From: an uncultured Pelagibacteraceae bacterium
GTDB lineage: Bacteria > Pseudomonadota > Alphaproteobacteria > Pelagibacterales > Pelagibacteraceae
NCBI GenBank assembly: GCA_902560625.1
Contig: CACEMD010000002.1
Location: forward strand, 62,001 to 126,000
Direction: 5' to 3'
Length of the DNA stretch: 64,000 nt
Of this stretch, positions 22,109 to 25,337 are shown one piece after another. The notes beneath the pieces were generated by a model, which was not told the DNA's origin, did not search any database, and was given only the letters and a program-made list of their open reading frames with translations. A program made the position numbers and the translations under genes. The stretch's first letter is position 1. Each line of letters starts with the position of its first letter.

Positions 22109-22431
22109 CTTATTTAGTTAACGAAAAATGTATTAAATGTAAGTTAATGGATTGTGTAGAGGTTTGTCCGGTTGATTGCTTTTATGAAGGCAAAAATATG
22201 CTTGTAATTAAACCAGATGAGTGTATAGATTGTGGCGTTTGTGAACCAGAATGTCCGGTTGACGCTATAGTTCCTGACACAGAAAGTGGAAGTGAAAAGT
22301 GGTTAGAAATAAACAAGAAATATTCCGAAATTTGGCCAAATATTTCAGAAAAGAAAGAACCGCCAAAAGATAATCAAAATTTTAAAAATGAACAGAATAA
22401 ATTTGAAAAATATTTTAAAGAAAACATTTAA
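22105..22431 (+). CDS. fdxA: Ferredoxin, 7Fe-8S type (FdxA)
   Basis: Low-potential electron carrier. 108 residues. Nine cysteines at 9, 12, 17, 21, 25, 40, 43, 46 and 50 reproduce the Azotobacter ferredoxin I spacing, in which one [3Fe-4S] and one [4Fe-4S] cluster bind ([17 protein letters not shown], then [12 protein letters not shown]). The C-terminal tail of about 50 residues is polar. It overlaps the TerB stop by 4 nt, and the downstream CarD start lies 44 nt inside it. Confidence 0.95.
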
Positions 22432-23203
22432 AAAAAAAGTCCCTAAAACCAAAGTTGCCAAAGGTAAGAATAAAAAATTAAAAACTAAAAATAAGAAAAC
22501 AAAACAAATAAAACAAAATAAAAAAATAATTAAAAAAAAAAACGAAACACAACAAGCAGTAAATAAAACAGATAATCTTAGAATTGTTAAAAATAACGAG
22601 CAAAAACCAGAAATAAAAAAAGTTAAAAAGCAGGAGAGCGAAAAAAGAATTTATAAGATCAAAGATTACGTTGTTTATCCAAAACATGGTGTGGGACAAA
22701 TCACAGAATTTAAGAAAATTAATATTGGTGGGATTGAAGTAGAAACTTACATTTTGAAATTTGAAAAAGATAAGGCAAATGGAATGGTTCCAGTCAATAA
22801 ACAAGTAAATTTGAGACCTTTGGCTACAATAAATCAAGTAAATAAATGTATAAGCATTTTAAAAAGTAAACCTAAGATTAAAAGATCTATGTGGAGTAGA
22901 AGAGCTCAGGAATATGAAGCAAAGATATCTTCTGGTAAAATTTATGAACTTGCAGAAGTAGTTAGAGATTTAAATAAAGGTGATGATATTTTAGTTGATC
23001 AATCTTATAGTGAGAGACAATTATTTGAAAAAGCATATGAAAGATTACTAACCGAATTTCAAATTGTTATGAATTCTACTCTAGAAGATGCACAGAAAAA
23101 ATTAGATAAAGCATTGAAAAGAAACTTACAAAACCAAGTTCAAAAAGTTGAGGAAGCTCCAAAATTAAAAGAAAAACAAGAAGAAATTTCCAAAGAAATA
23201 TAA
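22388..23203 (+). CDS. carD: CarD-family transcription regulator with lysine-rich N-terminal tail
   Basis: Binds the RNA polymerase beta subunit and stabilises open complexes at promoters (CarD/CdnL family). 271 residues, about 100 longer than usual. The RNAP-interacting Tudor-like domain begins near residue 88 ([19 protein letters not shown]), followed by the helical DNA-binding domain ([18 protein letters not shown]). Residues 1-86 are low-complexity and about one third lysine, like a histone tail. No other good start occurs before the domain, but a start nearer residue 80 cannot be excluded. The start overlaps fdxA by 44 nt. Confidence 0.9.
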
Positions 23204-23207
23204 CAGT

Positions 23208-23246
23208 AAAAAAAAACGCTTCCCACGCAAACGCCATGGGAAGCGT
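23208..23246 (-). terminator. Rho-independent terminator of the basic mini-gene
   Basis: Perfect 10-bp stem ACGCTTCCCA (23216-23225) with TGGGAAGCGT (23237-23246) around an 11-nt loop. Read on the minus strand it is followed by eight or nine U residues (A-run 23208-23216), a textbook terminator. It lies 26 nt beyond the stop of the 24-residue peptide gene. On the plus strand it is 12 nt after the carD stop but lacks a U-tract there, so it may only partly serve carD. Confidence 0.85.
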
Positions 23247-23272
23247 AATTATTTAAGAAAAAGAATACTAGA

Positions 23273-23347
23273 CTATCTTCTTCTTCTTTTTTTAGCTTTT
23301 TTAGCTTTCTTTTTCTTTTTAGCAGCTTTTTTTCTTCTTTTAGCCAT
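23273..23347 (-). CDS. 24-residue Lys/Arg/Ala peptide (mini-gene)
   Basis: Frame MAKRRKKAAKKKKKAKKAK followed by K and four arginines to a TAG. After Met it contains only Lys, Arg and Ala, so it is expected to bind nucleic acid or rRNA. Coding is supported by context: AGGGAG (complement of 23354-23359) 6 nt before ATG, a TTGACA promoter upstream and a terminator downstream. It resembles the tails of histone H1-like proteins or tiny ribosomal proteins such as Thx in character, not in sequence. Family not recognised. Confidence 0.75.
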   Translation of the reverse strand: MAKRRKKAAKKKKKAKKAKKRRRR

Positions 23348-23366
23348 CTTTAGCTCCCTGTTTAAT

Positions 23367-23385
23367 ACGAATCTTTATGATTCGT
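23367..23385 (-). promoter_or_regulatory. Perfect 7-bp inverted repeat in the mini-gene leader
   Basis: ACGAATC (23367-23373) and GATTCGT (23379-23385) flank a 5-nt loop TTTAT. It lies between the proposed promoter and the ribosome site of the 24-residue peptide gene, beginning a few nt after the predicted transcription start. No U-tract follows on the minus strand, so it is not a terminator. It could be a stabilising 5' hairpin or an operator. Confidence 0.55.
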
Positions 23386-23397
23386 TTGTTAAATATG

Positions 23398-23426
23398 TTT
23401 TTATTTTTTTTGATTAGTTATGTCAA
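23398..23426 (-). promoter_or_regulatory. Predicted sigma-70 promoter of the mini-gene
   Basis: On the minus strand, a perfect -35 TTGACA (complement of 23421-23426) is followed after 17 bp by TAAAAA (complement of 23398-23403), a weak -10. The start point would be near 23391, just before the leader hairpin. The rest of the gap to the acyl-CoA synthetase stop (23427-23535) is plain AT-rich sequence in which I see nothing. Confidence 0.5.
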
Positions 23427-23535: not shown

Positions 23536-25242
23536 TTAATAAAGTTTCTCGAAAGAATTTTTATATTTCTGTATAATTTTAAATCTTTTTAACTTTAAAG
23601 TTGGTGTTAACATTCCATTTTCAATTGAAAATTTTTCATTAACAACGAAAAATTTTTTTATATTCTCTATTTTAGATAAATTTTTATTTATTTTTTCAAT
23701 TTCATGTTTGATTTCTTCATCTGTTAAGGATTTTTTTTCGTTGTGAAGGACTAATAAAGCAACTAGAAAAGGTTTATTATCACCATAAACGATTGCTTGC
23801 TCAAATATCTGGGAATTAATTAACTCATTTTCAATTTTTTGTGGAGAAATATTGTCCCCGCCAGGTGTGATAAGAATATCTTTTTTTCTATCTGTTATTT
23901 TTAAGTAATTATTCTCAAATACACCTATATCTCCTGTATGAAGCCATCCATTTTTTAAAACTTTATCTGTTTCTTCCTTTTTATTCCAATATCCAATCAT
24001 AACATTTTCACCTCTTACAAGAATTTCTCCATCCTCTGCAATTTTTACCTCATTTCCTCTAAAGGGTGGTCCAACTGTTTCTACTCTAATATCATTTATA
24101 GGATTACAGCTTACTACTGGAGATGTTTCAGTTAAGCCATATCCTTGAAGGGTGGGCAGGCCTATGGCATTTAGGAATAAGCCAATTTCTTTATCTAAAG
24201 ATCCTCCACCTGAAACAAAAGTTTTTAACGATCCTCCAAATTGAACCTTGATTTTTCTTCTAACAATTTTATCTAGAATATTATCAATTATCTTATCCCA
24301 AAAAGTTAGATGATCTTTTTTAATTTTTTTAAGTCCTAAATTTAACATTCTATTTATTAAAATTTTTTTTAAGCCAGTTGTTTTATTAAAACTTGCATTA
24401 ATTTTTTGATATAAGTTTTGATAAAATCTTGGAACTGCAGTCATAATTTCTGGACTACATTCATTCATGTTTTTAATTAATTTATCAATACTCTCAGCGT
24501 AAAAAACTCTGGCTGAAACTGAAATTTGAACAAATTGAACTGTATGCTCGTAAGAGTGAGATAAAGGTAGCCACGTTAAAAATCTTGTTCCATCTTTTTT
24601 AATCAATGGTTCCAGTATATCTTTAGCTCCTTCACAATTATTTAAGATTCCTCCATGACTCAAAATAACTCCTTTTGGATTTCCCTGAGTACCAGATGTA
24701 TAAATTATACAAGCGGGATCTTTTCTATTAATTTTAATTTTAGGAATATTATTTACACTAGCTAATTCAGAAAATAAATTGCTTATGTTAATATATTCAT
24801 TATCTTTCAAATTAGACAGTTTTTCAAAAGAAAATACTTTTTTAATAAATTTTTTACTATTAATTATATTTTTTATTTTTTTATATTGTTCATCATTTGA
24901 TACAAAAACTAGTGCTGGTGTGCAATCATCAATAATATATCTGTAATCTCTTTCGGAATAAGTTGTATAAGCTGGCACTGTGATTGCTTCAGATAACATT
25001 ATGGAAATATCAGTAATAAACCATTCTGGTCTGTTCTCAGATACCAATATACATCTATCACCTTTGCTTGCGTATTTTTTTATTTGATTGGAAAGCACGT
25101 TTACTGAGTCATATACTCCTTGCCAACTATAATTTTTTTTTGGTTCTTTTAATGATGTTAGTAATATTTTTTCTTTGTTTTTTTGATTTTCGTACTGATG
25201 AAAAAATAATTCTGTTAGGTTATTAATATTGTTTAAATTCAT
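23536..25242 (-). CDS. Long-chain acyl-CoA synthetase (AMP-forming)
   Basis: Activates fatty acids with ATP and CoA, probably at the inner membrane (FadD/FAA-type). 568 residues from the ATG at 25242. The AMP-binding signature IIYTSGTQGNPKGV is near residue 180; later motifs include LQGYGLTETSP and the hinge region GWLHTGDIG with ITDRKKDILITPGGDNISP. An in-frame TTG at 25260 would place the start inside tRNA-Leu and is rejected. It follows the tRNA by 8 nt. Confidence 0.93.
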   Translation of the reverse strand: MNLNNINNLTELFFHQYENQKNKEKILLTSLKEPKKNYSWQGVYDSVNVLSNQIKKYASKGDRCILVSENRPEWFITDISIMLSEAITVPAYTTYSERDYRYIIDDCTPALVFVSNDEQYKKIKNIINSKKFIKKVFSFEKLSNLKDNEYINISNLFSELASVNNIPKIKINRKDPACIIYTSGTQGNPKGVILSHGGILNNCEGAKDILEPLIKKDGTRFLTWLPLSHSYEHTVQFVQISVSARVFYAESIDKLIKNMNECSPEIMTAVPRFYQNLYQKINASFNKTTGLKKILINRMLNLGLKKIKKDHLTFWDKIIDNILDKIVRRKIKVQFGGSLKTFVSGGGSLDKEIGLFLNAIGLPTLQGYGLTETSPVVSCNPINDIRVETVGPPFRGNEVKIAEDGEILVRGENVMIGYWNKKEETDKVLKNGWLHTGDIGVFENNYLKITDRKKDILITPGGDNISPQKIENELINSQIFEQAIVYGDNKPFLVALLVLHNEKKSLTDEEIKHEIEKINKNLSKIENIKKFFVVNEKFSIENGMLTPTLKLKRFKIIQKYKNSFEKLY

Positions 25243-25250
25243 TTTATTTT

Positions 25251-25337
25251 TGGTGGGCAAAGAGAGAGTCGAACTCTCACAGTATTGCTACTATTGGATT
25301 TTGAGTCCAACGCGTCTACCAGTTCCGCCATTCGCCC
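25251..25337 (-). tRNA. tRNA-Leu (anticodon CAA)
   Basis: 87-nt class II tRNA with encoded CCA (complement of 25251-25253). The acceptor GGGCGAA pairs with TTTGCCC (one G-U). The anticodon stem TTGGA/TCCAA holds the loop CTCAAAA, giving CAA, which reads UUG. A long variable arm and T arm GAGAG-TTCGACT-CTCTC are present. It ends 8 nt before the acyl-CoA synthetase start, with no terminator between. Confidence 0.98.

Follow-up and report, generated by a model that had tools for sequence, protein, structure and literature searches.

The smallest ribosomal proteins, bTHX, bL37, bS22 and eL41, have 20–35 residues, most of which are Lys and Arg. In Chlamydia, the H1-like, lysine-rich protein Hc2 (HctB) differs in length among strains through the number of its repeats (PMC2848022). 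The Pseudomonas proteins AlgP and PhaF carry tails with K/A/P-rich H1-like repeats. AlgP joins a separate N-terminal domain to a tail of ~195 residues, and KPAA peptides of this tail bind DNA in vitro (PMC9239181).

The gene discussed here lies at 23208–23426 on the minus strand of the window, the whole 64,000-nucleotide stretch of Pelagibacteraceae DNA that was analysed. A preliminary description had proposed a self-contained gene dedicated to a polycationic peptide, and most of the parts it named can be read directly: the –35 box TTGACA (23421–23426) with a 17-nt spacer, the perfect inverted repeat ACGAATC-ATAAA-GATTCGT (23367–23385), which can form a 5′ hairpin and holds two GANTC sites, the Shine-Dalgarno (SD) sequence AGGGAG (23354–23359) 6 nt ahead of the ATG at 23347, and a frame of 24 K/R/A codons (23273–23347, stop included) encoding MAKRRKKAAKKKKKAKKAKKRRRR. 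The peptide consists of M plus 12 K, 6 R and 5 A, with a net charge of about +18. The element CGAATC (23379–23384), which contains the GANTC (CcrM) site GAATC, is found ~3–8 nt past the predicted transcript start. Two parts had been described less exactly. The terminator is present, with a T run reaching ~23208, but its hairpin (23216–23246) has 12 pairs, 7 of them G-C, and not a stem of 10 bp. The TTGACA box is also real, but the promoter was over-rated: the probable –10, TAAAAA (23398–23403), 17 nt past the –35 box in an A-rich tract, is weak, and a strict sigma70 scan omits this promoter. That scan gave no excess of promoters in the region (17 vs. 17.8 in shuffles) or of terminators (1 vs. 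1.0).

The strand from 23386 to 23208 folds with z = –4.5, and none of 200 shuffles folded as well. In the predicted fold, the last codons, AGAAGAAGAAGA (23247–23300, minus strand), form a stem with a run of pyrimidines beyond the stop, which closes over the stop codon. Rfam at gathering score recognized only two tRNAs in the window and no family in the region of the peptide gene, and the covered parts of the Meyer 2009 motif survey hold no recognized entry for it (PMC2704228). When the source genome was searched with the 24-residue peptide, the single match reported was this locus.

The neighbors, named from their own sequences, are an acyl-CoA synthetase gene (23536–25260, minus strand) and, convergent with the peptide gene, carD (22388–23203, plus strand). 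Past the terminator comes carD on the opposite strand, and all genes down to 19200 are on the plus strand. Since a same-strand gene that could be regulated is absent downstream, a leader peptide or attenuator was rejected. The SAR11 CarD protein begins with ~60 lysine-rich residues (22388–22565, plus strand), and it is curious that carD and the peptide gene, side by side, both specify polycations. In one genus outside the order (L221, L222) CarD bears a long H1-like KKPAAKK tail at its N-terminus.

Conservation was examined at 158 carD loci of Pelagibacterales from ten genera, 114 in the genus of the window (g1) and 44 in the others; three of these 44 repeat a place already sampled, and a species may occur in more than one sample. 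Left out were genomes in which carD had no match (3 of 22 in one sample, 14 of 52 in another). The complete peptide gene was found in the same place and on the same strand in 149 of the 158. In the other nine the contig ends within the gene (six) or 40–112 nt past the carD match (three), and no intact site lacking the gene was seen among the 158. The L209 contig begins at the terminator of the gene. Four further loci of the genus all have it complete, and two more are cut just before the start codon or SD. The promoter box, SD, ATG, frame, stop and terminator are all retained across the order, as the claim of a dedicated gene would have it. TTGAC is at the same place in ten genera, among leaders reaching that far, and a G+C-rich hairpin with a T run follows the gene in 18 loci covering all genera. 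The leader AGGGAGCTAAA[AG]ATG was read in 105 of 111 loci of the genus, a contig end cutting the other six. Comparison of the block across SAR11, which the preliminary description had suggested, was made with the 241-nt block: of 151 genomes in the genus, 116 reach a best E < 1e-25, among them 21 of the 22 that are at least 90% complete, and the other 35 match weakly only. The best 80 of 444 named carD relatives are all labeled Pelagibacteraceae, Candidatus Pelagibacter or Pelagibacterales, i.e., SAR11.

The coding test was made on 47 distinct CDSs of the genus, which specify 27 distinct peptides; the start was taken as the ATG behind the SD, with an additional in-frame ATG upstream in L068 and L085. 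Differences in length among the 47 are whole codons, and both flanking spacers vary by single bases (20–26 nt from GATTC to ATG, 19–28 nt from stop to terminator). For the 22 distinct CDSs of 27 codons, pS was 0.174 and pN 0.047, giving pN/pS 0.27. Bases other than the majority base amount to 0.5% at the first codon position and to 6.5% and 6.1% at the others; a nearly invariant first position is expected if codons for Lys, Arg and Ala alone are allowed. The residues specified by the 47 CDSs are limited to K, A, R, M, T and P. Acidic residues are absent, and neither Glu nor Gly is found, though a single base change in Lys and Arg codons would give them. Judged by its conservation and by these patterns, this is a conserved protein gene, neither a chance ORF nor a bare RNA.

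The length of the product is far from constant. Within the family of the window it is 21–24 residues in g8 and g9, 22–35 in g1, 31 in g6, 36–38 in g5 and 34–58 in g7, where repeats resembling PAKK appear. The other sampled family of the order, f2, has forms of 40–99 residues of the type MEELKVIFAKARKKAKKKAAPKKKRKAAKRKPAKKK..., with AAPKK and PAKK repeats, and g2 by itself has five lengths (40, 60, 79, 80 and 85 residues). The short forms keep the composition but have few repeats. N-termini begin with MAK(R/K) directly or with a short MEELKVIFAKA; MAK(R/K)RKKA is conserved, and the C-terminus is basic. Because place, strand, terminator and leader element are common to them, the short and long forms were taken as one gene. 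We infer that they share descent, which low-complexity sequence cannot prove, and that the change in length was shrinkage and not growth.

Outside the order, a carD-like match was obtained in 125 of 141 alphaproteobacterial genomes (127 of 143 with two members of the order included). The peptide gene was absent from the 70 of these carD neighborhoods that were read, 30 in a first set of loci and 40 in a second; a few could hide it where the contig ends near carD. A composition rule for K/R-rich ORFs near carD was positive in 45 of 48 loci of the order vs. 3 of 70 outside; those three (L222, L238, L244) were judged to be chance ORFs in GC-rich DNA. A class-wide search with the 85-residue form matched 0 of 143 genomes and is uninformative, as it missed known relatives of the gene too. 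Within the scope of carD neighborhoods, the gene looks like an innovation of the Pelagibacterales at the carD site.

Comparison with the described systems starts from the long forms, whose AAPKK and PAKK repeats in variable number recall the lysine-rich repeats of Hc2 and the tails of AlgP and PhaF. In contrast to AlgP, the whole protein here is the tail. Hc2 is larger, with 165–237 residues vs. 21–99, and it differs in having a family profile: four members of the present series (24, 35, 58 and 85 residues) were without a Pfam or NCBIfam match at E ≤ 1, a blank that is weakened by the filters for biased composition. A likeness to Hc2 in the binding of DNA is putative. A description of the peptide gene was not found in the open-licence full-text literature.

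As we envisage it, the gene would give a single-gene transcript of ~180 nt, a short mRNA whose strong SD would direct translation into an almost pure Lys/Arg/Ala polycation. The short peptide would be a miniaturized form of a histone-H1-tail-like protein, the longest members resembling H1 tails, and would bind and condense nucleic acid, probably the nucleoid, total charge counting for more than exact sequence. Length drifts but charge and the Lys/Arg/Ala composition persist, which is the pattern expected for the binding of a polyanion and not for the fit of a pocket. From the sequence evidence we consider it somewhat probable that the peptide is a nucleic-acid-binding polycation with the nucleoid as its main target. 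We infer not only the binding and the target, but also the level of transcription and translation.

The main rival, which ranks second and which we regard as unlikely, is a small accessory ribosomal protein like bTHX, bL37, bS22 or eL41, a K/R-rich helix threaded into rRNA. The size and K/R content recall such proteins, the conserved N-terminus and basic C-terminus would agree, a structured leader would suit autoregulation, and the sole match of the 85-residue form in PDB, a weak one, is to a putative ribosomal protein L29 (phmmer, E 0.52). However, lengths of 21–99 residues with repeats that vary even within a genus are unusual for a part fitted to rRNA. The 24-residue form has no PDB sequence match at E ≤ 10 (phmmer), and the gene lies outside any ribosomal operon, with no ribosomal genes adjacent.

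The element near the predicted transcript start bears on how the peptide might be regulated. CGAATC is present in 148 of 149 rows, the exception (L058) being cut, and the base after it is A, with one exception seen (L154). Its distance from the first base of TTGAC is 39–43 nt in ten genera, as measured in leaders reaching both; five loci of the genus cut before TTGAC were excluded from this distance. The pattern TTGACN{33,38}CGAATC was found at the peptide locus in nine of nine genomes and at one extra place in one of them. Its backwards control gave 19 matches in the same nine genomes, so the rarity of the pattern proves nothing and the common place alone counts. The GAATC within the element is a GANTC site conserved at the predicted transcript start. 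A CcrM homologue has been stated for SAR11 (PMC3973325), and the reported share of GANTC sites with full methylation is 99.86% in cultured Pelagibacter and 71–95% in sea samples (PMC9516812). A CcrM-type N6_N4 methyltransferase was detected in 11 of 11 genomes and the GcrA family in 36 of 41, though the control of the latter search was also positive in Sulfolobus.

The locus shares with alphaproteobacterial promoters controlled by GcrA and CcrM a conserved GANTC at the promoter, in genomes with both proteins, and CGAATCA, on the other strand TGATTCG, fits their extended motif YGAKTCG (PMC7987155). Against such control, the site does not lie between –35 and –10 but falls past the predicted start. 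Caulobacter promoters differ in behavior according to whether GANTC is placed between –10 and –35 or elsewhere (PMC4287350). A methylation switch made of paired GANTC sites, attractive within the genus, was rejected, as the hairpin lacks GATTC, the second site, in 8 distinct loci of g5–g9 and in others; only the first site can matter throughout the order. In the upstream regions of SAR11 ccrM itself, by contrast with the placement at the peptide gene, GANTC, as inspected by eye, closely follows a TTGAC box in 10 of 11, with L181 as the exception; these promoters, L178–L180, L182 and L183 among them, suggest self-control by methylation. A more specific form of the nucleoid reading would make the forms of 21–35 residues a minimal H1-tail-like "histone", whose transcription, behind a structured 5′ leader, would be tied to replication by CcrM methylation of GANTC, so that condensation of the nucleoid would follow the cell cycle. 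We hold this form to be doubtful.

Polycations generally bind polyanions, and the chief target may be polyphosphate, membrane lipid or RNA condensates instead of the nucleoid. We judge this improbable. AlgP associates with polyphosphate granules (PMC9239181), but genes for polyphosphate metabolism were not seen adjoining the peptide gene.

The leader also raises the question of an RNA as the main or second product, i.e., a stable small RNA bounded by two hairpins, beside which the peptide would be minor. All of the 148 leaders, in 56 distinct forms, have a stem of at least 6 bp that includes or follows CGAATC, although choosing the best stem per leader favors finding one, and the hairpin occurs in all ten genera with compensating changes. 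Variants of the stem include GATTCG, GATTTG (with a G-U pair), ACTTAAA/TTTAAGT, ACATA/TATGT, CAA/TTG and CAC/GTG. When everything past the first nine bases was shuffled, in up to three leaders per genus, the observed stability was reached by at most 0.6% of 1000 shuffles in eight genera and by 3.7–5.7% in g8 and g9. In g5–g7 the stem mostly leaves out the CGA part, whose constancy needs another cause, either recognition at the DNA level or transcription initiation. For the SD, the predicted pairing is 0.97–0.98 in g5 and g7, at most 0.11 in g8 and g9, and 0.42–0.74 elsewhere, so that no single translational switch can be claimed. In f2, leaders L165–L170 and L191–L212 have a second nearly constant stretch, TAACCTCTAACTAAACCC. 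Directly ahead of their SD is a CCC/GGG hairpin, which in g4 is CGC/GCG, a compensatory change. As a marker for the order, CGAATCN{2,8}GATTCG was rejected: it occurs in 106 of 117 genomes of the genus, none of 27 from the remaining genera of the family and none of 53 from the other family, and the gene is present where the pattern is absent. A leader pattern matched three viral contigs, which were rejected as viral copies, the K/R peptide, carD and the synthetase being absent from all three.

The strong fold and the hairpin maintained by compensatory change would suit such an RNA. However, ordinary stable mRNAs have such ends too, there is no Rfam family at gathering score, and the coding constraint is clear. 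The preliminary description had offered a small RNA as its alternative, to be preferred if relatives kept the hairpins and lost the ATG, SD and stop; since these are retained with the frame alongside the hairpins, that alternative is disfavored, and we give an RNA product little credence. An AT-rich genome in which A runs encode Lys could yield such a frame by accident, but with conservation across the order and with Glu and Gly missing one base away, a chance ORF in an A-rich stretch can practically be set aside. Beyond the preliminary description, there are the longer H1-tail-like homologues, the conserved GANTC at the predicted start and the compensatory hairpin.

Contigs tend to end here. 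For the best 80 of 444 carD loci, the number of contigs ending within 3 kb is 16 on the gene side of carD and 10 on the other; 12 of the 16 end 129–374 nt past the carD match, compared with 1 of the 10 within 400 nt. The 12 near ends fall over or beside the peptide gene and its leader (L006, L017, L024, L035, L036, L037, L058, L069, L071, L074, L077 and L080), and L303 and L304 also end at or beside the gene. Assemblies may break at the low-complexity codons or at the hairpin, which would hide the gene from catalogues, and this, besides its short length, may partly explain why it was overlooked.

SAR11 bacteria are among the most abundant marine bacterial groups and have very little spare DNA. 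That they devote a promoter, leader and terminator to ~24 residues implies a real use. The series from 99 down to 21 residues is a natural experiment on the amount of H1-like tail required. Should the peptide prove to condense the nucleoid, it would rank with the smallest histone-like proteins, and it would raise the question of the way DNA is packed in cells this small.
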